A stretch of DNA of 32,057 nt from contig NZ_RAVZ01000073.1 of the NCBI RefSeq assembly GCF_003611635.1, positions 1-32,057 of the forward strand. Reading direction: 5' to 3'. The notes under the pieces were generated by a model. The model was not told the origin of the DNA. It saw nothing but the letters and a program-made list of their open reading frames with translations, and did not search any database. Below are positions 1,876-30,884 of this stretch, one piece after another; within the stretch, counting starts at the first letter, position 1, and the number at the start of each line of letters is the position of its first letter. The DNA is from Corallococcus terminator. GTDB lineage: Bacteria; Myxococcota; Myxococcia; Myxococcales; Myxococcaceae. Made by a program: the position numbers and the translations under genes.

Positions 1876-2322
1876 ATGAAGAAGATCACAGGTCAGGTCA
1901 AGTTGCAGATTCCCGCCGGCAAGGCGAACCCCGCCCCGCCGATTGGTCCCGCCCTCGGTCAGCAGGGCGTGAACATCATGGAGTTCTGCAAGCAGTTCAA
2001 TGCCAAGACGCAGGCAGAGGCGAAGGAAGGTCTCATCATCCCGGTGATCATCACCGTGTATGCGGACCGCTCCTTCACCTTCATCATGAAGACGCCTCCC
2101 GCCGCCATCCTCATCAAGAAGGCCGCGGGTCTCCACACGGAGAAGAAGAAGGGTTCGGGCGCGAAGAAGCCGGGCAAGGAGAAGGTGGGGCAGATCACCC
2201 GGAAGCAGCTCGAGGAGATCGCCAACAAGAAGATCCAGGACACCACCGCCGCGTCCCTCGAAGCCTGCATGAACACCATTGCTGGCACCGCGCGCTCCAT
2301 GGGCATTGAAGTCGTCGGCTAG
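1876..2322 (+). CDS. rplK: 50S ribosomal protein L11
   Basis: L11 binds the GTPase-associated centre of 23S rRNA and is needed for the stringent response. The 148-residue product is full length. The N-terminal domain carries [20 protein letters not shown] and [12 protein letters not shown], including the flexible proline-rich segment contacted by thiostrepton-class drugs. The C-terminal RNA-binding domain has [14 protein letters not shown] and ends [11 protein letters not shown]. It is preceded by the L1-type leader and followed 29 bp later by rplA. The Shine-Dalgarno is weak (GAAAGG about 15 bases upstream), which fits a gene controlled at translation initiation. Confidence 0.97.
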
Positions 2323-2351
2323 CCCGCCCCCATCTTTCAAGGATTCCTGCC

Positions 2352-3065
2352 ATGGCTACCAATGGAAAGAAGTTCCGCGCGTCCTCCGAGCTGGTGGACC
2401 GCAACAAGCGCTATCCCGTCGCCGAGGGCTTCGCGCTGCTGAAGAAGACGGTCGAGTCGCGCGCGACGAAGTACGACCAGACGGTCGATGTCGCCATCAA
2501 CCTGGGCGTGGACCCGAAGCACGCGGACCAGATGGTCCGTGGCGCCGTGGTGCTCCCGCACGGTACCGGCGCCACCGTGCGCGTGGCCGTGTTCGCCAAG
2601 GGTGAGCGCGCGACCGAGGCGGCCAACGCCGGCGCCGACATCGTGGGCGCGGAGGACCTCCAGAAGCGCATCGAGGAGGGCTTCCTCGACTTCGACACCG
2701 TCATCGCGACGCCGGACATGATGGGTGTGGTCGGTCGCCTCGGTAAGGTGCTTGGTCCCCGCGGTCTCATGCCCAACCCGAAGGTCGGCACGGTCACCAT
2801 GGACGTCGCCAAGGCCATCCGCGACTCCAAGGGCGGTAAGGTCGACTTCCGCGCGGAGAAGGCGGGCATCGTCCACGCGAAGATGGGCAAGGCCTCCTTC
2901 GAGACGGCCAAGCTCGAGGCGAACTTCAACGCGCTGGTGGACCTGGTGATGAAGCTCAAGCCGGCCACCGCCAAGGGCGTGTACCTGCAGGGCATCGCCA
3001 TCTCGACGACGATGGGGCCGGGCATCAAGCTCGACACCACCGAAATCCTGGCGCGTCACCGCTAG
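2352..3065 (+). CDS. rplA: 50S ribosomal protein L1
   Basis: L1 forms the mobile stalk that helps release deacylated tRNA from the E site, and in many bacteria represses its own rplKA mRNA. The 237-residue product has the expected two-domain pattern: N-terminal [20 protein letters not shown] and VLPHGTG, the domain II Rossmann-like part around [10 protein letters not shown], then the signature [19 protein letters not shown] and the C-terminal [18 protein letters not shown]. Length is normal (E. coli 234). Its probable mRNA target lies at 1810-1852, just before rplK. A terminator hairpin and a long leader follow. Confidence 0.97.
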
Positions 3066-3170
3066 TTCGCGGCGCCAGCCGGGCCGGGAAGAGTGCGCTC
3101 CCTGACGGGGAGCGTCAGTCCTGTCGTCCGCTGAACGTCGGTCGCATAGAAAGTGCTGGATCTTTGCGAA

Positions 3171-3197
3171 AGCCGGGGGTATAGGCCCCCGGCTTTT
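3171..3197 (+). terminator. Intrinsic terminator/attenuator between rplA and rplJ
   Basis: AGCCGGGGG (3171-3179) pairs perfectly with CCCCCGGCT (3186-3194) around a 6-base loop, followed by TTTTG and preceded by GAAA, which can extend the stem. It looks like a genuine Rho-independent terminator. I found no convincing promoter between it and the L10 leader, so partial read-through (attenuation between L11-L1 and L10-L7/L12-RpoBC) is likely. Confidence 0.82.
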
Positions 3198-3244
3198 GCA
3201 ATTGGAGCGCCATGTCGAGAGACGCGGCGTTCCGACCTGGTTCA

Positions 3245-3357
3245 TGACAGCAGGGACCTGGAAGGGAAGAAGACGCGTCCGTTGGGAACCGGGCAACCGG
3301 TCGGGCGTTTATTCCGCTCCAGGTTCAAACGGCCGCAAGGTCAGCCCTGCCGAGACT
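3245..3357 (+). promoter_or_regulatory. L10-type ribosomal protein leader upstream of rplJ
   Basis: The conserved halves of the L10 leader kink-turn are present. TGACAGCAGGG (3245-3255) pairs through GCAGGG (3250-3255) with CCCTGC (3345-3350), and the latter continues into the conserved CTGCCGAGA. Inside, ACCTGGA (3256-3262) pairs with TCCAGGT (3318-3324). A further hairpin ACCGG/CCGGT (3288-3292/3297-3301) is capped by a GCAA tetraloop. In known systems the L10-(L12)4 complex binds this element and represses rplJL. The rest of the 397-bp rplA-rplJ gap holds the terminator at 3171-3197 and the hairpin at 3423-3442. Confidence 0.82.
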
Positions 3358-3422
3358 GGAGGTGCGGTGTGGTGCCTCTCGGAGGCTCCTCCCTCGCTCT
3401 GCCACTTTGGCCCAGGCATCAC

Positions 3423-3457
3423 GCCCGACCGTCAGGTCGGGCCATAAAGGAGGTGAG
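3423..3457 (+). promoter_or_regulatory. Hairpin abutting the rplJ Shine-Dalgarno
   Basis: GCCCGACC (3423-3430) pairs with GGTCGGGC (3435-3442) around a GTCA loop, immediately upstream of a very strong ribosome binding site AAAGGAGGTGA (3446-3456). The GGAGG ends 9 bases before the GTG at 3463, which fixes that GTG as the rplJ start. The hairpin has no T-run, so it is not a terminator. It may be a switch partner of the L10 leader upstream (inference). Confidence 0.6.
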
Positions 3458-3462
3458 TCAAG

Positions 3463-3984
3463 GTGCTGAAGAGCGAGAAGGAAGTGATGATCAAGGAACT
3501 CCACGAGAAGTTCGCCCGGACCAAGTCCGCGGTGGTCGCCGAGTTCTCCAAGGTGGATGTGGAGACGGTGACCAAGCTTCGTCGGAAGTTCCGCGAGGGC
3601 AAGGTCGAATACAAGGTCATCAAGAACACGCTGGCGCGCCGTGCTGCTGAAGGCACGTCCCTCTCCGTGATTTCGGATGACTTCACGGGTCCCGTGGCCC
3701 TGTGCATCAGCTACGACGACGTGGTGGCTCCTGCCAAGATCCTGATGGATTTCATCAAGGACATGGAGACCATCAAGGTCCGCAGCGCCGTGGTGGACGG
3801 CCGCAAGGTCGACGTCAACGGTGTGAAGGCGCTGGCGAAGTTGCCGGGCCTCAACGAGCTCCGAGGGCAGTTGCTCGGAATGCTCAACCAGCCTGCTGGC
3901 AAGCTGGTTCGGACCATCGCGGCCCCCGGGTCGCAGCTCGCGCGGGTCATCCAGGCCAACGCGGACAAGTCGAAGCCCGAGTAA
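3463..3984 (+). CDS. rplJ: 50S ribosomal protein L10
   Basis: L10 is the stalk base that anchors L7/L12 dimers on 23S rRNA. The 173-residue product begins MLKSEKEVMIKELHEKFARTK from a GTG start, with the typical TVTKLRRKFREGKVEYKVIKNTLARRA in the rRNA-binding domain (residues about 40-65). It also has a C-terminal helix, about residues 138-165, that binds L7/L12. The strong AAAGGAGG site nine bases upstream decides the start. It follows a long structured leader, as expected for the autoregulated L10 operon, and rplL follows after 92 bp. Confidence 0.96.
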   Translation: MLKSEKEVMIKELHEKFARTKSAVVAEFSKVDVETVTKLRRKFREGKVEYKVIKNTLARRAAEGTSLSVISDDFTGPVALCISYDDVVAPAKILMDFIKDMETIKVRSAVVDGRKVDVNGVKALAKLPGLNELRGQLLGMLNQPAGKLVRTIAAPGSQLARVIQANADKSKPE

Positions 3985-4076
3985 TCGTCCCGAGAAGTTT
4001 TTCTACCGCAACCCCTGCGGCTGGGCTGACCCAATGGGTCGCCGGCCGTTAGTCAACACCAGAAGGACACAGTTCC

Positions 4077-4445
4077 ATGGCTGACCTGAACAAGATTGCC
4101 GAAGACCTCTCCTCCCTGACGATCCTGGAGGCCGCTGAGCTCGTGAAGGCCCTCGAGACCAAGTGGGGCGTTTCCGCCGCGGCCGTTGCCGTTGCCGCGG
4201 GCCCTGCCGTCGCCGCCGCTCCTGTCGAGGAGAAGACGGAGTTCAACGTCATTCTCGCCAACGCGGGCGCGAACAAGATCAACGTCATCAAGGAGATCCG
4301 CGCCATCACCGGCCTGGGCCTGAAGGAGGCCAAGGACCTGGTCGAGGGCGCGCCCAAGACGGTCAAGGAAGGCGTCAACAAGGACGACGCCAAGAAGATC
4401 AAGGACCAGCTCGTCGCGGCTGGCGCCACCGTCGAAGTGAAGTAG
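4077..4445 (+). CDS. rplL: 50S ribosomal protein L7/L12
   Basis: L7/L12 is the multicopy acidic stalk protein that recruits translational GTPases. The 122-residue product has an N-terminal dimerisation helix pair (residues 1-32), an Ala/Val-rich hinge (about 33-50, [18 protein letters not shown]) and a C-terminal globular domain with [28 protein letters not shown] and [14 protein letters not shown]. The length is normal. AGAAGGAC about 9 bases upstream serves as ribosome binding site. The 92-bp rplJ-rplL gap contains two small hairpins. An attenuator-like hairpin lies downstream, before rpoB. Confidence 0.97.
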
Positions 4446-4508
4446 TTCTGACAGGGGCTGTCCTGTTCTTCCGGGAAATCCCGGGCAGCCTCCTGACTGG
4501 ATGAGCAG

Positions 4509-4540
4509 GCCGGCGTCCCCTTTGCTGGGGCGCCGGCTTT
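4509..4540 (+). terminator. Attenuator-like hairpin between rplL and rpoB
   Basis: GCCGGCG (4509-4515) pairs with CGCCGGC (4531-4537) and CCCC (4517-4520) with GGGG (4527-4530), leaving T4516 bulged and a 6-base loop. Only TTT follows, so termination is probably partial. E. coli has a partial attenuator at the same place that sets the ratio of ribosomal proteins to polymerase subunits; a similar role here is inference. A smaller CCGGG/CCCGG hairpin lies at 4471-4484. Confidence 0.6.
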
Positions 4541-4625
4541 GCCCATTTGACATTTGCCAAATTTCCCGGCGCCGCCGCGCGTTACTGAAGTTTGCCCCGC
4601 CCGAGCAGCCGTCCCCGGAGACCGA

Positions 4626-8852
<4,227 letters not shown>

Positions 8853-8871
8853 GCCTTTTTAGCAGCCGGTG

Positions 8872-8938
8872 CGCCCGCCTGACCGGTCGGCATCGCTTCC
8901 TCGTGGAGGGAGCGGCCGACCGGGTGCAGGGCGGGGGC
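8872..8938 (+). other. Long composite stem-loop in the rpoB-rpoC gap
   Basis: Three stacked helices can be drawn: CCCGCC (8874-8879) with GGCGGG (8930-8935), a perfect 9-bp CCGGTCGGC (8883-8891) with GCCGACCGG (8915-8923), and CGCTTCCT (8894-8901) with AGGGAGCG (8907-8914) around a 5-base loop. CTTTTTA follows the rpoB stop upstream of it, but no T-run lies downstream, so it does not look like a terminator. It could be an mRNA processing or stability element that lets beta and beta' be translated separately. Confidence 0.6.
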
Positions 8939-8984
8939 CCGAAACGTTTGGCGCCTTGAGCGCTCATAAGTTTTCGGAGGCAAC

Positions 8985-13193
<4,209 letters not shown>

Positions 13194-18324: not shown

Positions 18325-19350
18325 ATGCACGAGACCGGGCCGCTGGACGTGGTGTGTGTCGGCGAGACGCTGGTGGACTTCCTTCCCGCGTCGGGTGGGG
18401 CTTCACGCGTGCGGGACGTGGACGCATGGCGGCCTTCGACGGGCGGCTCGCCGGCGAACGTCTCCGTGGGAGTTTCGCGCCTGGGACTGCGCTCGGCGAT
18501 GGTGGGCGTGGTGGGCTCGGATGAGTTCGGTCACTTCCTGCGCGATCGGCTGGCCGCGGAGGGCGTGGACGTCAGCCGCCTGCGTCAGGTGGACCACGCG
18601 CGCACGGGGCTGCTGTTCGTGTCGCTGGATGCGCGGGGCGAGCGCAGCTTCACGTTCTTCCGCACGCGTTCGGCGGAGTTCCTGCTGGATGACTCGGACG
18701 TGGACGGCGACTTCGTGCGGCGCGCGAAGGTGCTGCACTCCGGCTCCAACTCCCTGGTGCTGCCTGCGGCGCGCGAGGCCGTGGTGCGCATGCTCACCCT
18801 GGCGCGCGAGGCCGGGATGATTGTCAGTTGTGATCCGAACCTGAGGCTCCACGTGTGGCCGGAGCCCGAGGAGCTGCGGGTCCTCCTGGGACGCATGCTG
18901 CCCCTGTGCACGGTGGTGAAGCTGTCGGAGGAGGAGGTGGCCTTCGCGACCGGTGCGCGCACGCCCGAGGAGGCCCTGCGGCACCTGGACGGGTTGGGCG
19001 TGCGGCTGCCGGTGGTGACGCTGGGCGAGCAGGGCGCGGTGTTCCTCTGGCGGGGCGAGGTGGTCCACGTCCCCGCCCCCCGGGTGACGGTGGTGGACAC
19101 GACGGGCGCGGGGGATGGCTTCGTGTCGGCGCTGCTGCATGGGCTGGTGCGCTGGTACGGCGATGCGCGCTCGCTCGCGGACGCGACGCGGGAGGAGCTG
19201 GTCGCGCTGATGACGTTCGCGGCCGACGTGGGCGCGCGGGTGGTGACGAAGCTGGGCGCGGTGGCGGCCCTTCCCCTGGCGTCCGAAGTAGAAGGCCTGC
19301 TGCCCACGCGCTCCCAGGGCCCGGACGCGGTCCAGCGCGCCGCGCGTTGA
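18325..19350 (+). CDS. PfkB/ribokinase-family sugar kinase (fructokinase-like)
   Basis: Predicted to phosphorylate a sugar, probably fructose or a related hexose, with ATP. The 341-residue product has the PfkB N-terminal signature region (GGSPANVSVGVSRLGL, residues 40-55, and the dipeptide GG) and the C-terminal signature VVDTTGAGDGFVSALLHGL with anion-hole G261-A-G263 and catalytic base D264. The substrate-binding half contains FTFFRTRSAEFLL, as in fructokinases. The position after GAGD is G where the family usually has A or S. GCGGGGAGCG gives the ribosome binding site. The family has many substrates, so specificity is not settled. It is transcribed in the same direction as the downstream nucleotidyltransferase pair, 78 bp away. 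Confidence 0.88.
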   Translation: MHETGPLDVVCVGETLVDFLPASGGASRVRDVDAWRPSTGGSPANVSVGVSRLGLRSAMVGVVGSDEFGHFLRDRLAAEGVDVSRLRQVDHARTGLLFVSLDARGERSFTFFRTRSAEFLLDDSDVDGDFVRRAKVLHSGSNSLVLPAAREAVVRMLTLAREAGMIVSCDPNLRLHVWPEPEELRVLLGRMLPLCTVVKLSEEEVAFATGARTPEEALRHLDGLGVRLPVVTLGEQGAVFLWRGEVVHVPAPRVTVVDTTGAGDGFVSALLHGLVRWYGDARSLADATREELVALMTFAADVGARVVTKLGAVAALPLASEVEGLLPTRSQGPDAVQRAAR

Positions 19351-19428: not shown

Positions 19429-20721
19429 ATGAGCGACCCGAGACCTGATGCGACGCCCCCCACCTCCGCGAGGGTTCGGGGCCTGGAGCAGATCGACCGG
19501 CTGTCCGTGCCGCTGCCGCACGGCACCGAGGTGACGACGCGCGTGGAGCGCGTGGCCTCCGCCGGGCGCCGCATCCCGCAGGGCGTGGTGGGCCGCGTCG
19601 TGCGCGCGCATGACGGTGGCTTCGATGTGCAGATCGTCGGCGTGGGCGAGGTGTGGTTCGCGCGCGAAGAACTGGTGCCCCGGCGCGTGGGACAGGTCCA
19701 GTTCGCCCAGCGGCGCGAGGCGGCCTGGGGCGCGCTGCGGCCGTGCGTGGTGCTGGAGACACGCGTGGGCAGCCACGCCTGGGGGCTCGCGGACGAACGC
19801 TCCGACGTGGACGTGCGCGGCGTGTTCTCGCTGCCCCTGTCGTGGACGCTGGGGCTGGGGCAGGCGCCGCAGGACCTGGTGAGCGCGGATGGCAGCACCA
19901 CGTACTGGGAGGTGCGCAAGACGGTGGAGCAGGCCCTGCGCGCGGATCCGAACACGCTCGAAACGTTGTTCGTCCCTGGCGCGACGGCGTCGGATGAGCT
20001 GGGCGAGTGGATGCTCGAAGCGCGCGAGGCGTTCGTCTCCAAGGCCATCTTCGGCAGCTTCGGGCGCTATGCCATGAGCCAGCTCGACAAGCTCACGCGC
20101 AGCCAGCGGCTGGCCGAGCACCGCGACCTGCTCCTCGCGTGGCTGTGCGAGGACCCCACGCCAGACCTGGACGAGGTGGCCCGGAGGCTGGCCGCCGTGT
20201 CGCCCCGGAGCGCGCCCACGCCCGAGGATGGGGTGCTCGCCGCGAAGACGTACGTCAAGCAGCTCTACCGCTCGCTCTGGGACCAGGGCCTGCTCGCGGC
20301 CAACGACTTCGCGGCGCTGACGGCGTACGCACGTGGTGGCGGCCAGCGCCCTCCGTCCGCTCGGGAGCTGCGGCCGAAGAATGCCTACAACCTGCTGCGT
20401 CTGGTGGCGCTGGCGACGGGGTGGCTGCGCGACGGAACTCCCACCTTCGAAGCGACCGGAGCGTTGAAGGCGCGGCTGCTCGACATCAAGGGCGGGCAGG
20501 TTCCGTTGGAAGAGGTCCTGCGCGACGCGGAGGCGATGGCGCCCGCGCTGGAGGTCGCGCACCGCGAGAGCCGGCTGCCGGAGCATCCGGACTACGCTCG
20601 CGCGGATCGGCTGTTGCGGCGGGTGGGGGACGAGGTGGCCCGGCGCTGGGTGCTGAAGACGCCCGGGCCGTTGGGGCGTGACACGCCGGAGGCCCCGGCG
20701 CTGGAAGGAGGGACGGAATGA
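19429..20721 (+). CDS. RlaP-type polymerase-beta-fold nucleotidyltransferase with N-terminal beta-rich domain
   Basis: Function unknown; resembles the RlaP family (RNA-ligase-associated polymerase beta fold, predicted RNA-repair nucleotidyltransferases). Of the 430 residues, about 25-95 form an extra beta-rich, SH3- or KOW-like domain (GVVGRVVRAHDGGFDVQIVG). The catalytic core then begins with the polymerase-beta motif GSHAWGLADERSDVDVRGVF (G114-S115, metal-binding D126 and D128). YWEVRKTVEQAL follows, with E161 as a likely third carboxylate, and then NTLETLFVPG, characteristic of the family. ATG at 19429 has GGGAGGG 6-8 bases upstream and is preferred to one at 19390. Its TGA overlaps the next gene (ATGA), coupling the two. 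No RNA ligase is visible nearby. Confidence 0.82.
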   Translation: MSDPRPDATPPTSARVRGLEQIDRLSVPLPHGTEVTTRVERVASAGRRIPQGVVGRVVRAHDGGFDVQIVGVGEVWFAREELVPRRVGQVQFAQRREAAWGALRPCVVLETRVGSHAWGLADERSDVDVRGVFSLPLSWTLGLGQAPQDLVSADGSTTYWEVRKTVEQALRADPNTLETLFVPGATASDELGEWMLEAREAFVSKAIFGSFGRYAMSQLDKLTRSQRLAEHRDLLLAWLCEDPTPDLDEVARRLAAVSPRSAPTPEDGVLAAKTYVKQLYRSLWDQGLLAANDFAALTAYARGGGQRPPSARELRPKNAYNLLRLVALATGWLRDGTPTFEATGALKARLLDIKGGQVPLEEVLRDAEAMAPALEVAHRESRLPEHPDYARADRLLRRVGDEVARRWVLKTPGPLGRDTPEAPALEGGTE

Positions 20722-21506
20722 AGGGCTCAATGACGGAGCATCAGCAGCGGATGGCGGACCGGGTGCTGGACGAGGAGTCGCAAAGGCGCGAGCACCTGGT
20801 TGTCTCGCTCTCCGGCGCGCATGCGTACGGCTTTCCCTCGCCGGACAGCGACCTGGATCTCAAGTCCATCCACATCGCGTCCACCAGCGCGCTCCTGGGC
20901 CTCCAGACCCGCCACGTGAACGCCGAACGGCTGGAGGTGCTGGAGGGCGTGGAGGTGGACTACTCGTCCAACGAGCTGCAGCCCGTGCTGCTCGGCATCC
21001 TCCAGGGCAACGGCAACTACATCGAGCGGGTGCTGGGGGCCATCCCCGTGCGCGCCCTCCCGGAACTGGAGGTCCTGCGTCCCCACGTGCGGTCCGTGCT
21101 GTCGCGCCGCATCCACCGGCACTACCGGGGCTTCGCGCAGGGCCAGCTCCGCGAGTGGGAGAAGAGTGGCTTCCGCTCCGCGAAGAAGCTGCTGTACGTG
21201 CTGCGGACCACGCTCACCGGGACGCATGCGCTGCGCACGGGCGAGGTGGAGACGGACGTCACCGTCCTGCTGGAGCCGTACGGCTTCGGCGATGCCCATG
21301 CGCTGGTGGAACAAAAGCTCCGGGGCGAGCGCAGTGAGCTGCCCGAGGCTCTCAGCGTGCGATGGCAGGGGGAGGTGGCGCGGGCCTTCGGGGTGCTCGA
21401 TGCGGCGGATGCGGACTCCCAGCTTCCCCTGGAGCCTCCGACCGCGGCGGTGGCCGCGCTCGAAGGGTGGATGCTTGATGTTCGGAGACGGCGGTTCGGC
21501 GTCTAA
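20718..21506 (+). CDS. Second RlaP-type nucleotidyltransferase, coupled to the first
   Basis: A 262-residue protein starting at ATG 20718, overlapping the previous stop by 4 bases, with GGAGG 8-10 bases upstream. The core motif is SGAHAYGFPSPDSDLDLKSI: the usual GS is GA (G33-A34), while the two metal aspartates are D45 and D47 and a possible third is D81 in GVEVDYSS. It matches the RlaP-family pattern but lacks the N-terminal domain of its neighbour and is shorter. The two are therefore diverged paralogues, not a duplication of recent origin. A heteromeric enzyme is possible. Substrate is unknown; alternatives are an antitoxin-like or tRNA-modifying nucleotidyltransferase. Confidence 0.8.
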   Translation: MKGSMTEHQQRMADRVLDEESQRREHLVVSLSGAHAYGFPSPDSDLDLKSIHIASTSALLGLQTRHVNAERLEVLEGVEVDYSSNELQPVLLGILQGNGNYIERVLGAIPVRALPELEVLRPHVRSVLSRRIHRHYRGFAQGQLREWEKSGFRSAKKLLYVLRTTLTGTHALRTGEVETDVTVLLEPYGFGDAHALVEQKLRGERSELPEALSVRWQGEVARAFGVLDAADADSQLPLEPPTAAVAALEGWMLDVRRRRFGV

Positions 21507-24925: not shown

Positions 24926-27023
24926 TCTGCTCCTGGAAATCGGCGCCGAGGAGATCCCGGCGTCGTTCATCGTGCCCGCGCTGGACGACTTGAAGCGCGT
25001 GCTCATCGAACGCATGGCCGACGCCCGCCTGAAGCACGGCGAGGTGCGCACCTTCGGCACGCCGCGCCGGCTCGCGGTGTGGGTGCGCGACGTGGCGGAC
25101 GCGGGCGAGGACGTGACGAAGGAGGTGCTGGGGCCCAGCGCCAAGGCCGCCTTCGACGCGCAGGGCAAGGCGACCAAGGCCGCGGAGAAGTTCGCGGAGA
25201 GCCTCAAGCTGTCGGTGGACGCGCTGGGCCGCACGACGACGCCCAAGGGCGAATACGTGTCCGCGCGCGTGGAGGAGAAGGGCCGTCCGGCGGACGCCAT
25301 CCTCCAGGACGCGCTGCACACCGCGGTGCACGGCATCAACTTCAAGAAGTCCATGCGCTGGGGCGACGTGGACATGTCCTTCGCGCGCCCGGTGCAGTGG
25401 CTGGTGGCGCTCCTGGGCGACACGGAGCTGCCGGTGGTGTTCGGCGACGTGAAGAGCGGGCGGACCACCTACGGACACCGCTTCCTTTCGCCCGGCCCCA
25501 TCACGCTGAAGGCGCCCGCGGACTACGAGGCGACGCTGGAGAAGGCGCACGTGCTGGCGGACATCGGCAAGCGCCGCGCGTCGCTCGTGCAGAAGGTGAC
25601 CGCCGCGGCGAAGGCGGCGGGGGGCCAGCTCCTGGAGGACGAGGGCCTGGTGGACCAGGTGACGAACCTGGTGGAGCTGCCGAGCCCCGTGGTGGGCCGC
25701 TTCGATGAGCGCCACCTGGACCTGCCGCCGGAGGTGCTGGTGCAGGAGATGAAGAGCCACCAGCGCTACTTCTCGCTGGTGGACGCTCAGGGCAAGCTCC
25801 TGCCGCGCTTCATCGCCGTGTCCAACACGCCGGTGCGCGACGAGCAGTTGTCGCTGCGCGGCTACGAGCGCGTGCTGCGCGCGCGGCTCGCGGACGGGCG
25901 CTTCTTCTTCGACGAGGACCGCAAGACGCCGCTGGGCGACCGCGTGGAGAAGCTGGGCCGCGTGGTGTGGCAGAACCAGTTGGGCACGTACCTGGAGAAG
26001 GTCGAACGCTTCCGCTCGCTGGCGGGCTGGCTCGCGCAGGCCACGGGCAGGGCAGGGGAGGCGGCCACGGTGGAGCGCGCCGCCACGCTGTCCAAGGCGG
26101 ACCTCGTCACCGGCATGGTGGGCGAGTTCCCGGAGCTCCAGGGCGTGATGGGCCGCGAGTACGCGAAGGCCGGCGGCGAGCCGGACGCGGTGGCCCTGGC
26201 CATCTCCGAACACTATCTGCCCCGGGGCGCCGAGGACGCGCTGCCCACCCAGGACGCGGGCGCGCTCATCGGCCTCGCGGACCGGCTGGATTCGCTGTGC
26301 GGCATCTTCGCCATCGGCAAGGCCCCGTCGGGCGCGGCGGATCCGTTCGCGCTGCGCCGGGCGTGCCTGGCCATCATCCGCATCGTGCTGGGGCGGGGCT
26401 ACCGCTTCAGCCTGTCGGCCGCGGTGGATGAGGCCCTGGGCCTGCTCGCGCCGAAGCTGGCCAACGTGAAGCGCAAGCCGGGCGAGGCCGCGCCGCGCGA
26501 ACAGGTGCTGGAGTTCTTCCGCGGCCGCCTCAAGGCGCTGTGGGGAGAAGAGCACCGCACGGACGTGGTGGAGGCGGTGCTGGCCGTGGGCTTCGACGAC
26601 CTCGTGGCGGCGAAGAAGCGCCTGGAGGCCCTGAGCCTGCTGGTGGGCCACGCGGACTTCCAGCCGCTGGCGGCCGCCTTCAAGCGCGTGGTCAACATCG
26701 TGGAGAAGCAGGGCAAGGACGTGGCGGGCGGGCAGACCAACCCGCAGCGCTTCACCGACGAGCCGGAGAAGAACCTCCACACCGCCTTCACGCAGGCGCG
26801 TGACAAGGTGGGCGTGCATGTGCGCGCGGACGACTTCGCCGGTGCCCTGCGCGAAATCACCGGCCTGAAGCCCGCGGTGGACACCTTCTTCGACAAGGTG
26901 ATGGTGATGGCCGAGGACAAGGACCTGCGGGAAAACCGCATCCGGTTCCTCACGGAGATTGGCGCCCTGTTCAACCAGGTGGCTGACTTCTCCAAGATCC
27001 AGGCGGAAGTCGCCGCCGCCTGA
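24915..27023 (+). CDS. glyS: Glycine--tRNA ligase beta subunit
   Basis: Beta subunit of the same synthetase; it recognises tRNA-Gly through its anticodon-binding and HD-like domains. The 702-residue product (E. coli 689) begins [18 protein letters not shown] from GTG 24915, with TCGGAGG upstream and an 11-base overlap with glyQ. Family stretches are present, including [54 protein letters not shown] and, near 455-480, [20 protein letters not shown] with DPFALRRA. The C-terminal helical anticodon-binding part ends [16 protein letters not shown]. No frameshift or gap is seen. Confidence 0.97.
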
Positions 27024-27038
27024 AGCTTTACCGCCGGA

Positions 27039-27076
27039 GCGTGCCCGTTCCCCCGCCAGGGGAGCGGCACGCGTTT
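27039..27076 (+). terminator. Terminator after glyS
   Basis: GCGTGCC (27039-27045) pairs with GGCACGC (27066-27072), then seven further bases at 27047-27053 pair with 27059-27065 (C27046 bulged). GTTTCC follows. The stem is 14 bp with a loop of 5. The T-run is short, but the position, 16 bp after the glyS stop, fits termination. Confidence 0.65.
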
Positions 27077-27127
27077 CCGGGCTTTGCGGCCTGCGGCGTG
27101 GGTGGGTGTCGTCGGGAGGGCGAACGG

Positions 27128-27179
27128 GAATAGCGACAGCCCTATTCAGTTGCCCGGGGCAGGGCCCCGTTCCTACACT
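27128..27179 (+). promoter_or_regulatory. Palindrome and candidate promoter upstream of lipoprotein pair
   Basis: GAATAG (27128-27133) and CTATTC (27142-27147) form an inverted repeat with an 8-base spacer, in an A/T-rich patch. Directly after it TTGCCC (27150-27155) lies 18 bases before TACACT (27174-27179), a plausible sigma70 promoter (4 of 6 at each box). The palindrome touches the -35 box, as an operator would. Transcription would start about 6 bases before the ATG at 27193. Confidence 0.45.
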
Positions 27180-27192
27180 CCGCCCCCCTCTG

Positions 27193-28728
27193 ATGCGCCT
27201 CCCTTTCCTGACCCCCGCGCTGTTGCTCCTCGCGGCGTGTTCGATCGAATCTGAACCGAACCCGCCCCCGTCCACCCGCTTCGTGTACCCCAGCGGGGTG
27301 GCGTTCTGGCGCCCACCCGCGGCTGGCGGTCCCTCGGCGAGCAACGGCTACCTCTTCGTCGCGAACGCGAACTTCGACAACTGCTACGACTCCGGTTCCG
27401 TGGTGGCGCTCAACCTGGACGCGCTGAGCACGCAGGCGGATGGCCAGTCCGTCCCGGTGCCCCGGCTGGGGACCGCCGTGGCGGCAAGCCCGCTTCTCTT
27501 CGAGTCGCTGTCCGCGTCGGCGGACTCGCTCGTGCAGATCCGCAGCTTCGCGGGCGACATGGGGATGTGGGTCAACCCGGCCAGCGGACTGCCGCGCCTG
27601 TTCGTGCCTTCGCGCGCGGAGGGCAACAACCTGTTCGCGGTGGACGTCAGCCTGTCGGCGGACGGCGCGCCGGTGCTCAACTGCGTGCAGGGCGGCGTGG
27701 ACTGCCAGACGGGGGCGCTGTCGCTCACGGACGACATCCCGGCGTCGCTCCAGGAGTCGGGACGTCCGGGCCTGCCCCGCGCGCCGTCGCCCATTGGCGT
27801 AACGGTGGATGACGCGAACGGCACGCTGTACGTGACGCACTCGGAGGCGGCGGATTCGCCCGCGAACTCCAGCACCAACTTCGAGAACTACCTGGTCACC
27901 CTGAAGGCGGAGAACCCCACGCGCGACACGCTGGGCTTCATCCCGCTGTCGCCAGAGGGCTACATCTACGGCGGCTCGGATTCGACGACGGTGGGGACGG
28001 GCTACCTCTTCGTGTCGGGCCGCAACTTCGTGGCCGGCGACAGCGGCACGGTGGGCGCGAACTTCGTCCTGCGGCTGGTGGACAAGAACGTGCCCACGCG
28101 CATCCTGGAGCCCCTCCTGTCCCTGGTCTACCGCATCCGCGAGGCGCGCGCGATCCGGGTGGTGCCCCGCCCGGTGACGGCGGCGGAGCTCGCGGTCCGT
28201 CCCCACTTCGTGCGCGAGCGGCTGTACGTGCTGGCGCGAGGCCCGGACACGCTGCTCACGCTCGACTTCGAATACGACGCACCGCCGGGCGAGCAGTCCA
28301 CGGACCCGTCGTTCCGGGTCATCTCCGCGGTGCCCATGCCCGACGGCGTCAGCGACATGCAGATCATCAGCCGGCAGGGCGCGCCGACCAGCACCGACAC
28401 CAACATCCTCGCGGTGACGAGCACCGGCGACAGCGCGGTGTCCCTCTACGACGAGGCGCTCGGACAGGTCGTCGTCCAGGTACCGCTCGTCAATTCGCAG
28501 AACCAGACCAGCAACCCGTCGCAGGCCTTCGCGCTGACGGTGGACAACCCGGCCGGCGTGAACGCGGCGCGGCTGTTCGTGACCAACTTCGGAGACGGGC
28601 AGGTGGCCATCGTGGACATCCCCGACCTCACCCGTCCGCAGGACGCGCGGCTGGTGGCACGACTCGGCACGCAGCAGCAGCGGGATCCGAACCAGGGCAC
28701 CAGCGTGTGCCAGGAGAACCCATCTTGA
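27193..28728 (+). CDS. Lipoprotein of unknown function, beta-propeller-like
   Basis: I do not recognise the family. The 511-residue product has a lipoprotein signal MRLPFLTPALLLLAAC with lipidated C16, so it is exported. The mature part contains short repeats reminiscent of YVTN-type beta-propeller blades: GYLFVANANFDN, RLFVPSRAEGNNLFAVDVSL, GTLYVTHSEAADSP, ILAVTSTGDSAVSLYDEAL and RLFVTNFGDGQVAIVDIPD. ATG 27193 is needed for the signal peptide; no ribosome binding site is visible before it (CGCCCCCCTCTG), consistent with a nearly leaderless message. Its stop overlaps the TTG start of the next lipoprotein (TTGA). A role in surface sensing or envelope structure is possible but not shown. Confidence 0.82.
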   Translation: MRLPFLTPALLLLAACSIESEPNPPPSTRFVYPSGVAFWRPPAAGGPSASNGYLFVANANFDNCYDSGSVVALNLDALSTQADGQSVPVPRLGTAVAASPLLFESLSASADSLVQIRSFAGDMGMWVNPASGLPRLFVPSRAEGNNLFAVDVSLSADGAPVLNCVQGGVDCQTGALSLTDDIPASLQESGRPGLPRAPSPIGVTVDDANGTLYVTHSEAADSPANSSTNFENYLVTLKAENPTRDTLGFIPLSPEGYIYGGSDSTTVGTGYLFVSGRNFVAGDSGTVGANFVLRLVDKNVPTRILEPLLSLVYRIREARAIRVVPRPVTAAELAVRPHFVRERLYVLARGPDTLLTLDFEYDAPPGEQSTDPSFRVISAVPMPDGVSDMQIISRQGAPTSTDTNILAVTSTGDSAVSLYDEALGQVVVQVPLVNSQNQTSNPSQAFALTVDNPAGVNAARLFVTNFGDGQVAIVDIPDLTRPQDARLVARLGTQQQRDPNQGTSVCQENPS

Positions 28729-30884
28729 AGCGCGGCATCCCTGCTGCCCTGTTGCTGAGCGCCGCGAGTCTCACGGTCGCCTGCTCCGACACCACCTCCA
28801 CGGCGGGCGCCGCGGGCCTGTCGGGCACGTACGACGTGGTGCTCTCCAACCAGCTCGTCTTCGTCACCTCCCAGGACCGGGACGAGCTGCGCGTGTTGGA
28901 CCTCACGCGCTCGCCCCGCGAATACATCCCCGCGCCCAACCCGCTGGAGCCCCTGGCCATCCCCGTCGTCGCGCGGCCCGACTCGCTCACCCGCGACGTG
29001 GGCTACGACGCCGAGGGCAACGACGTGTCCGGCCCGTACATCTACGCCCGCAGCTCCGGCGGACGGAGCATCTCCGTGGTGGCCGCCGACCGCGCGCGCC
29101 TCAACGAGGTGACGCGGCTGTCCACCGGCCAGCTCATCACCGCCTTCGCCGCGCACGCCCCGGTGGCCGAGGGCGCGCCGAGTGTCCTGTACTACGCGCT
29201 CCAGACCCGCCCGGAGGCCGCCGAAGCGCTCTGCGGTCCCTTCGGGGGCGGGGTGGTGATGCGCCAGGACCTGCCGGCCCCGGACGCCTTCGACGCTGGG
29301 GCCCTGCCGGCCGCGCTGCCCGTCTTCTGCCTGCAACCGGCGGACACGGTGCTGTCCATGATCACGCTGCCCGCGCGCCCGGGCGTGACGGACTCGCTGG
29401 TCATCGCCATCCGCAACGTGACGGGCACCAGCCGGCTCGTGCGCGCTGTCGCGGACGGCGCTTCGGTGGAGGTCGCCTACAAGCGTCCGCGCCCGGTGCC
29501 GTACACGGTGCCGACGTACACGGACCTGGTGGACATCCCGGCGCGGCTCGTCGCCACGCATCCGGCCTACGGGCCGACGGCCACCCGCGTGGCCCAGGGC
29601 CGGTATGTGTACGTGGTGCTCGACGAACTCACGTGCGTCACCGCGGAGTGCGAGGGCGTCATCGCGCTCGACAACGGGCCGGACCCCCTGGTGCCGTCCG
29701 CGACGCCGGTGCTCGCGCGCGACGTCACCGGAGCGCCCATGCTGACGCTGCGTCCGTCCGGAGGCTTGCCCACCGGACTCACCCTGCGCGCGGGCCTGGA
29801 GGTGCGCGAGTTGCTATCGGACAGCATCGCGTACACGTCCCCCATCCCGCTGCTGGGCATCGTGCCGTCGTCCAACAACCAGATCACCCTGTTCCGCGCC
29901 GACGAGCGCCGCGCGTTCAACCTGGACCGGGATCCCACCACGGGCGCACTGCCTGCCACGGTGACGGTGGACCTGCGCGACGGCTCGGAGCTCTCCCGAC
30001 CGGACCAGATCCGGAGCATCGTGGTCAATCAGCCGGGGTGTCCCCAGCGCGCGGACGTGGCCAATGCGGACGCCTTCCTGTGTAACGGGACGCTGCCCTC
30101 CGGGACCTACCGCTTCGTCTTCCAGGGCATCCTGCCGGGCCTCGTCAACCTGGCGCGCGACCTGAACGTGGAGGATCCGCCCTTCCTGGTGGAGACGTCG
30201 CTGGTCGCGGCCCGCAGCGTGGTTCCGGGCGACTTGCTCGTGCTGGCGAACAACGTGGGAGCCTGCGAGAAGCCCGTCAAGGTGCTTCGCCTGGAGGACC
30301 TGGGGGATGGTCGCACCCAGCTCTTCCCAGACCTGGCAGACGCGGACACCCTCATTGCCCTGGAGACGTGCGCCGCGTATCCGTTCTTCTCCGTGCGCGC
30401 TGGCCCGACCGTGAAGCCCTTCATCCTCTATTCGGGCCTGGAGACCAGCGACTCCTACGTGCAGCGCTTGAACGTCAACGAGCCCTACACGGTGTCCAGC
30501 TTCCTGGATTATTACTACCACGCTGATGGCTTCGACCTGGGCCTGGACCCGCCCAAGTCGCCCACGACCTTCGTGCCCGCGCCGCTGTCGCTCACCCTGA
30601 CGGCGACGTTTGGAGGGGCTGATCGGCTCGGCGTCGGCGACCGCTACGTGGTGACGCTGCTGCCGCGTTTCCGGCGCTTCATCTTCGGCGTGGACACCGG
30701 GTCTGGCAGCTCGCTGACCAACCTGGGGGCCTACACCCTGCCTGGCTCCGTGGTGGCCACGGACGTGGCTGGCTCCAGTCTGGCCTACATCGCGTATCCT
30801 TCAGCGGACGGCGTGCTCCAGGTGGCCCTGGAGCAGATCAGCGACAACGCGGACAACCTCCAGTACCTCCGGGCCTTCCAGTAA
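28725..30884 (+). CDS. Second lipoprotein of unknown function, coupled by a TTG start
   Basis: A 719-residue product I do not recognise. The start chosen is TTG at 28725, since it gives a lipoprotein signal MKRGIPAALLLSAASLTVAC ending in a lipidated cysteine, has CAGGAG about 9 bases upstream and overlaps the preceding TGA by 3 bases (TTGA). A GTG at 28707 would add six residues before the signal and is less likely. The protein has repeated beta-rich segments with VVLSNQLVFVTSQDRDELRV and GRYVYVVLDELTCV, and resembles the preceding protein in its propeller-like style. Several cysteines occur in pairs and may form disulfides. The two lipoproteins probably act together at the envelope (inference). 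Confidence 0.82.
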   Translation: MKRGIPAALLLSAASLTVACSDTTSTAGAAGLSGTYDVVLSNQLVFVTSQDRDELRVLDLTRSPREYIPAPNPLEPLAIPVVARPDSLTRDVGYDAEGNDVSGPYIYARSSGGRSISVVAADRARLNEVTRLSTGQLITAFAAHAPVAEGAPSVLYYALQTRPEAAEALCGPFGGGVVMRQDLPAPDAFDAGALPAALPVFCLQPADTVLSMITLPARPGVTDSLVIAIRNVTGTSRLVRAVADGASVEVAYKRPRPVPYTVPTYTDLVDIPARLVATHPAYGPTATRVAQGRYVYVVLDELTCVTAECEGVIALDNGPDPLVPSATPVLARDVTGAPMLTLRPSGGLPTGLTLRAGLEVRELLSDSIAYTSPIPLLGIVPSSNNQITLFRADERRAFNLDRDPTTGALPATVTVDLRDGSELSRPDQIRSIVVNQPGCPQRADVANADAFLCNGTLPSGTYRFVFQGILPGLVNLARDLNVEDPPFLVETSLVAARSVVPGDLLVLANNVGACEKPVKVLRLEDLGDGRTQLFPDLADADTLIALETCAAYPFFSVRAGPTVKPFILYSGLETSDSYVQRLNVNEPYTVSSFLDYYYHADGFDLGLDPPKSPTTFVPAPLSLTLTATFGGADRLGVGDRYVVTLLPRFRRFIFGVDTGSGSSLTNLGAYTLPGSVVATDVAGSSLAYIAYPSADGVLQVALEQISDNADNLQYLRAFQ

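Follow-up and report, generated by a model that had tools for sequence, protein, structure and literature searches.

Two overlapping RlaP genes in Corallococcus terminator

We analysed a stretch of 32,057 nucleotides from Corallococcus terminator (hereafter the window, which is one entire contig, NZ_RAVZ01000073.1, of a 10.35 Mb assembly) and focus here on two forward-strand genes that encode proteins of the RlaP family of nucleotidyltransferases. The first gene (19429..20721, ATG at 19429) encodes a protein of 430 amino acids, which we call A, with an SH3/KOW-like barrel, an RlaP nucleotidyltransferase domain and a helical C-terminal domain. The second (20718..21506, ATG at 20718) encodes B, a protein of 262 amino acids with an RlaP nucleotidyltransferase domain and a helical C-terminal domain. 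The two genes share four bases, the stop/start overlap ATGA at 20718..20721, as an earlier note made from the DNA sequence had reported.

Both proteins exceed the cut-off of 23 bits for the Pfam family PF10127 (RlaP; RNA ligase-associating Pol-beta nucleotidyltransferase), A with 74.1 bits (E 1.9e-20) and B with 80 bits (E 2.9e-22), so the RlaP kinship proposed in that note stands. Up to E 1, PF10127 was the sole Pfam family for either protein and no HEPN model was matched; no aminoglycoside nucleotidyltransferase model (ANT/KNTase) was matched up to the same threshold in Pfam or NCBIfam. NCBIfam gave no family for A or B, and the PADLOC-DB of 2023 gave no defence family up to E 10. Among PHROGs, the best match of A was PHROG 388 (E 5.2e-28) and that of B was PHROG 14344 (E 9.9e-12). 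Pairwise ratios of nonsynonymous to synonymous substitution rates (dN/dS) among six Corallococcus sequences were 0.06-0.13 for A and 0.18-0.40 for B. Both genes are therefore under purifying selection and are being maintained.

Both proteins retain the residues of an active nucleotidyltransferase

To describe conservation, we aligned the window's A with 48 barrel-bearing A partners (of 59 non-fused ones) and the window's B with 79 other B proteins from the relatives described below. The core motif of A (GSHAWG...SDVDVRG, 19768..19812) comprises G114, S115, D126 and D128, each invariant in 49/49 proteins, and the third acidic residue, E161 (19909..19911), is present in 48. In B, the core motif (GAHAYG...SDLDLK, 20814..20858) comprises G33, A34, D45 and D47. 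G33, D45 and D47 are found in all 80 proteins, while position 34 is occupied by A in 62 of them and by S in the other 18. Because these 18 proteins carry S, the GA of B is interchangeable with GS. The position of the third acidic residue of B, E86 (20973..20975), is always D or E (D in 65, E in 15). The distinction between a GS core in the first protein and a GA core in the second was thus drawn correctly in the earlier note.

A K-x6-R arrangement is conserved in the helical domain of both proteins. In A it is formed by K317 and R324 (20377..20400; 49/49 each), which are candidate triphosphate contacts. B has R163-x6-H170, with H in 70/80 proteins; the counterpart in A is K-x6-R without the H.

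Judged by these residues (GS or GA/GS, DxD and an intact third acid), both A and B look catalytic. An active/inactive pair, one of the explanations offered for the coupling, is not supported because catalytic residues are kept in both proteins.

Structure models

AlphaFold2 models of A (mean predicted local distance difference test, pLDDT, 91.4; predicted template-modelling score, pTM, 0.80) and B (mean pLDDT 94.9, pTM 0.91) were compared with known folds. At the N terminus of A, the model shows the additional domain as a beta barrel of five strands, all within residues 34-84. The barrel region (residues ~26-92; 19504..19704) resembles SH3, Tudor, PWWP and KOW barrels, with VIA Z scores of 7-9 over 50-80 residues, which are small-domain scores. 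The highest was with part of Hpy99I (Z 9.0, root-mean-square deviation 1.1, 54 residues), followed by a PWWP domain solved with single-stranded DNA (Z 8.8), the PHF1 Tudor domain (Z 8.0), eL21 (Z 7.8), DSIF KOW6-7 (Z 7.4) and NusG (Z 7.0). The SH3/KOW-like domain that had been read from the sequence is therefore present in the model. Since Foldseek E-values for the barrel were only 0.04-0.15 (probability 0.99-1.00), 'KOW' is one of several barrel names that fit. Foldseek gave no match at E 0.001 or below for A.

The rest of A resembles HalB (VIA Z 9.3, Foldseek E 4.4e-3). B resembles kanamycin nucleotidyltransferase 1kan in Foldseek (E 2.2e-6, TM score ~0.45), and its best VIA rows are DrrA (10.9), AadA (10.4), glutamine synthetase adenylyltransferase (10.3), HalB (10.2) and AAD(9) (10.1). 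These top rows are ties that mix protein, drug and nucleotide substrates. MntA/HEPN-MNT entries scored Z ~5 against B, and the toxin RnlA scored Z 5.0 against its helical domain. A sequence search against solved structures returned nothing meaningful (best E 0.15 for B and 0.22 for A).

The genes are paired in all RlaP-positive Myxococcota sampled

We scanned 146 genomes of the window's phylum, Myxococcota, for PF10127 and found it in 64; it was absent from 82. Read from the match table, each of the 64 positive genomes has exactly two matches, on the same contig and within ~3.2 kb. The positives are clumped, with 55/65 genomes of the window's family (Myxococcaceae) against 9/81 others. One genome of the window's genus (G118) gave no RlaP match; its flanking glyQ was likewise unmatched, so the search may have missed the region and we do not claim a joint loss.

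Forty loci were fetched from this sample, including all nine from outside the window's family; gene calls in all fetched loci were mechanical open reading frames (ORFs). Two copies are broken and were excluded from alignments: in L064 (G066) A is split between two frames, and in L066 (G112) A seems to lack its end and B its start. For the overlap we counted 32 of the 34 intact loci with separate genes, leaving out L067 and L071 besides the two broken copies. In 28 of these 32, an in-frame ATG of B lies inside the same ATGA overlap; of the exceptions, the genes of L054 and L058 are close and those of L059 and L060 are further apart. The strict coupling described in the earlier note is supported. 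Four of the 40 loci (L068, L069, L070 and L072) hold A and B as a single-frame fusion of 681-793 amino acids, and all four belong to the group of six RlaP-positive genomes that fall outside the class of the window. In L067 (G002) and L071 (G027), the pair consists of a barrel-less protein of canonical RlaP type and a B-type protein, in the order B-A in L067. These pairs show that the barrel is not needed for pairing. No other cluster of neighbouring proteins was common to more than five of the 21 genera, and the most frequent was a generic protein kinase.

With purifying selection in the genus and recurrence in all 64 RlaP-positive genomes of the phylum, the A/B pair is not a product of chance.

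The A/B subfamily in other phyla

Scanning one-genome-per-species contigs with the B alignment yielded at least 578 relatives, of which the best 80 were kept as loci. Their record titles name Planctomycetota, Cyanobacteria, Chloroflexi, Acidobacteria, Myxococcota and others. The gene order is A-B in 54 loci and B-A in five (one of them on the other strand), one locus is fused, and 20 show no A in the sequence covered. Among the non-fused A partners, 49 of 59 could be aligned with the barrel segment of the profile. The fused locus, L095, is a Planctomycetota contig whose protein begins, by eye, with a barrel-like stretch. We set aside an alignment of this fusion with A and B rows, in which the invariant columns all fell in the second half of L095, suggesting that A rows had been matched to the B portion.

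In a tree with 149 proteins, the 64 A and the 85 B sequences fall into two clades with no exception (support 1.0). Distances among A proteins and among B proteins covary over 64 pairs (r 0.743, compared to a maximum of 0.366 in 2000 shuffles).

RNA-repair genes beside the pair in relatives

Full Pnkp (kinase-phosphatase-ligase) was found in nine of the 80 loci (L080, L082, L088, L099, L105, L141, L146, L151 and L152), Hen1 in eight and Thg1 in three; at least one of them was present in 12/80, these figures being raw counts without a random-window baseline. Eight of the nine Pnkp loci also carry Hen1. Weaker Pnkp matches in L120 and L078 were left out of the count, and the Thg1 of L120 was confirmed by Pfam. 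A Pfam scan covered 129 of 140 neighbouring ORFs (68 and 61), for which the 25 commonest families of 70 and of 53 were considered; among the matches listed, PNKP_ligase was found in eight ORFs and Hen1_L in six. Pnkp and Hen1 share the pair's cluster in relatives such as L141 and L152. In L141 (Acidobacteria, 1903-9331), RtcR, Hen1, A, B and Pnkp form a compact run of five genes that share a strand and have overlapping open frames. The run is probably a repair operon under sigma-54 control that includes the nucleotidyltransferase pair.

Other neighbours in these loci are unclassified or HEAT/DMP19/DUF5677 proteins that adjoin the pair (L105:1777-3618, L126:2768-4303, L152:6570-8021 and L120:3507-4652). 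A protein of the L120 type was seen again in L121 and L106.

In the window's phylum, hand tallies gave RtcB in 63/64 RlaP-positive and 45/82 RlaP-negative genomes. By genus the figures were 20/21 and 31/57 (Fisher p 0.0005, uncorrected for kinship). The sole RlaP-positive genome without RtcB, G012, has a Pnkp ligase. RtcB is strikingly numerous in this group, with seven matches in the window's genome and 5-8 in many relatives. The window's genome also has four RNA_ligase matches, two of them strong (on contigs C29 and C280).

Surroundings of the pair in the window

Other genes of the window include those for NusG, L1, rpoB, rpoC, a TPR protein, RecO, PfkB, a Ser/Thr kinase, glyQ, glyS and an FHA protein. 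Past glyS lie two long forward-strand ORFs (26959-28728, 589 amino acids, and 28707-30884, 725 amino acids), which may be genes of an unknown family or wrong frames; neither had a Pfam match up to E 0.001.

The PfkB sugar kinase (18325-19350, Pfam) ends 78 bases before A. The earlier note had placed the pair beside a sugar kinase, which is accurate for the window and misleading as a guide to function: PfkB lies upstream of the pair in 5/5 fetched loci of Corallococcus and was found in 0/35 other fetched stretches. We reject a link with the kinase because the adjacency was seen in one genus only.

Neither Pnkp nor Hen1 is among the window proteins scanned with Pfam, and PNKP_ligase had no match in the window's genome. 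The genomic link of this RlaP subfamily to ligases and end-healing enzymes, a descriptive trait that need not hold for each copy, is found elsewhere and not beside the window's copy. The earlier observation that no RNA-repair neighbour is visible is therefore right for the scanned window proteins and does not hold for relatives, where Pnkp, Hen1, RtcR or Thg1 can stand beside the pair.

Discussion

We favour, with a little better than even confidence, the reading that A and B are two subunits of one RlaP-type RNA-end nucleotidyltransferase that mends broken RNA, with the ligase encoded elsewhere in the genome. A physical A-B enzyme is the cheapest account because it explains fusion in two phyla, the conserved start-stop overlap, the presence of both genes or none in the phylum sample and their co-inheritance. 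The heteromeric enzyme put forward in the earlier note is thus supported as the likely reason for the coupling by the fusions, the ATGA overlap and the pairing. For the same reason of economy we prefer RNA repair, given the pair's neighbours in other phyla; this agrees with the published prediction (PMC7824862) that RlaP puts back nucleotides that were lost ahead of ligation.

A and B probably pack as a heterodimer, by analogy with kanamycin nucleotidyltransferase, a dimer whose sites are shared. A would supply one catalytic centre and the SH3/KOW-like barrel, which could hold RNA (tRNA or ribosome-bound RNA), and B would supply a second catalytic centre. Translational coupling may ensure that the two are produced together, as the single polypeptide would in some relatives. 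The complex would add one or more nucleotides to the 3' end of an RNA that has been cleaved and trimmed, making it ready for sealing by a ligase. The partner ligase would be Pnkp where it shares the cluster (the nine loci above) and, in the window's genome, may be RtcB or an ATP-grasp RNA ligase on other contigs.

It is tempting to speculate further that the heterodimer is an obligate repair RNA polymerase with two active sites, which grips broken RNA via the KOW-like barrel of A and rebuilds more than one lost nucleotide, with the two subunits responsible for different nucleotides or steps, and which stands alone in Myxococcaceae to serve ligases encoded elsewhere. We regard this as possible but doubtful. 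We found no description of such a division of labour for RlaP in the literature searched.

Several observations weigh against a two-subunit repair enzyme. On the side of pairing, the 64 paired genomes are not independent, with 55 from one family, and the covariation of A and B distances partly reflects shared species history. At 20 of the 80 loci no A accompanies B in the sequence covered; among 19 of these genomes that could be searched, 14 hold another RlaP match and five hold none. In samples that were not selected by B, with pairing read from tables, RlaP was present in 31/146 Cyanobacteria (the phylum of Nostoc genome G149), eight of them with at least two matches and four with adjacent pairs, one on opposite strands. 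It was present in 33/149 Planctomycetota (the phylum of Aquisphaera genome G165), where 16 genomes had at least two matches; 10 had clear adjacent pairs, two more had fragmentary matches side by side and one further genome had a gap of ~2 kb. Most RlaP-positive Cyanobacteria thus have a single RlaP, as do about half of the positive Planctomycetota. This argues against a general pairing rule: obligate pairing is a feature of the A/B subfamily and of the window's phylum and does not extend to all of PF10127. That the two genes might usually occur apart, as the earlier note had considered, is rejected in Myxococcota, where they are adjacent in every positive genome scanned, and is partly true for the RlaP family at large.

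On the side of RNA repair, a Pfam scan of 21 window proteins (which are not every ORF) turned up no repair gene besides A and B. In 68 of the 80 loci none of Pnkp, Hen1 and Thg1 was seen in the sequence covered, a count that did not systematically include RtcB or stand-alone RNA ligases. Kinship and genome size confound the association with RtcB, which is common in any case. In the literature searched we found no report of an RlaP activity. Finally, protein-AMPylating enzymes are among the best fold matches of B.

Of the alternatives, the strongest is that A and B are two separate enzymes that act on different ends or bases of the same RNA (one might extend 3' ends while the other works on another base or end) and are coupled for dosage without forming a complex. 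Their active sites are complete but differently decorated (fixed GS and E161 in A, mostly GA and D at position 86 in B), B evolves faster than A by dN/dS, and there are genomes in which B is retained with no A beside it. However, fusion in two phyla and the conserved overlap favour contact, and we consider separate enzymes rather unlikely.

A housekeeping role in RNA 3'-end maturation or quality control, unrelated to damage and kept in Myxococcaceae after capture from repair operons, would fit the frequency of the pair in that family, its low dN/dS and the lack of a ligase partner in the window. Yet its absence from 82 of the 146 phylum genomes means that it is not essential there, and some loci elsewhere have a repair context. 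This makes such a role improbable.

Another conceivable activity, for one subunit or for both, is AMPylation of a protein, which might be the partner subunit, a toxin or a housekeeping enzyme; MNT antitoxins modify HEPN toxins in this way. DrrA and glutamine synthetase adenylyltransferase are among the highest scores of B, tied with AadA and HalB, and because both AMPylate proteins, we slightly raised our estimate for this alternative and slightly lowered that for the favoured two-subunit reading. The weaker MntA/HEPN-MNT and RnlA similarities and R163-x6-H170 point the same way; the reading of R-x6-H as that of a HEPN-type RNase is retained only inside this weak alternative. Against it, fold scores within 1 Z are ties that show no function, HEPN and defence models were unmatched, and R163 is equally well explained as a nucleotide contact, since the same K-x6-R occurs in A, where the H is absent. 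The pair's occurrence in most Myxococcaceae is unlike that of a patchy toxin-antitoxin cassette, and repair genes neighbour it elsewhere. We judge protein modification to have a slim chance of being correct.

A small-molecule nucleotidyltransferase that modifies an antibiotic or sugar, as the kanamycin and spectinomycin enzymes among the best folds of B and the adjoining PfkB might suggest, is very improbable given that the kinase adjoins the pair in Corallococcus only, the aminoglycoside-enzyme models are unmatched and repair genes lie beside the pair in 12 of the 80 loci elsewhere.

Relation to known systems

A and B resemble the RlaP family in exceeding its Pfam cut-off and in their intact core, DxD and third acid. 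They differ in that the window has two diverged paralogues apparently acting as a unit, one of them barrel-bearing, with fused forms in relatives and no adjoining ligase. Paired or fused RlaP go unmentioned in the accessible parts of PMC7824862 and PMC6514570, and in the literature searched we found no description of a two-subunit, fused or barrel-bearing RlaP, a result that does not establish absence from print. We take the pair to be a two-subunit version of a family already described, for which a role in RNA repair is predicted, and, with the same pair beside RNA-repair genes in some loci elsewhere, calling it an undescribed system, as the earlier note had, is too strong.

Compared to bacterial Pnkp-Hen1(-Rnl) RNA-repair operons, the pair is near full Pnkp in relatives, whereas the window has neither Pnkp nor Hen1 among its scanned proteins. 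RlaP of jumbo and other phages is the closest PHROG relative of both proteins, and an annotated RNA ligase lies close by in Burkholderia phage BcepSauron. Unlike the pair, phage RlaP was matched at one place per record for each query (68 in 68 and 27 in 27), none of the matches covers 80% of A or B, and each of three phage regions inspected has a single annotated nucleotidyltransferase. Kanamycin and spectinomycin nucleotidyltransferases and HalB (Hailong) share the general fold of A and B, with no sequence-family match and with other substrates. MNT-HEPN toxin-antitoxin systems are two-gene modules with one Pol-beta fold member. In contrast, A and B are both full nucleotidyltransferases with helical domains, and neither matches a HEPN family.

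The pair is portable, occurs as natural fusions, keeps both of its active sites intact and has no other conserved operon genes; being common in Myxococcaceae as well, this two-gene cassette lends itself to a clean first test of RlaP function. Annotators can take from the pairing that at least two kinds of subunit fall within PF10127. Should the two-subunit reading be true, assays of a single RlaP of the A/B subfamily may show little activity.

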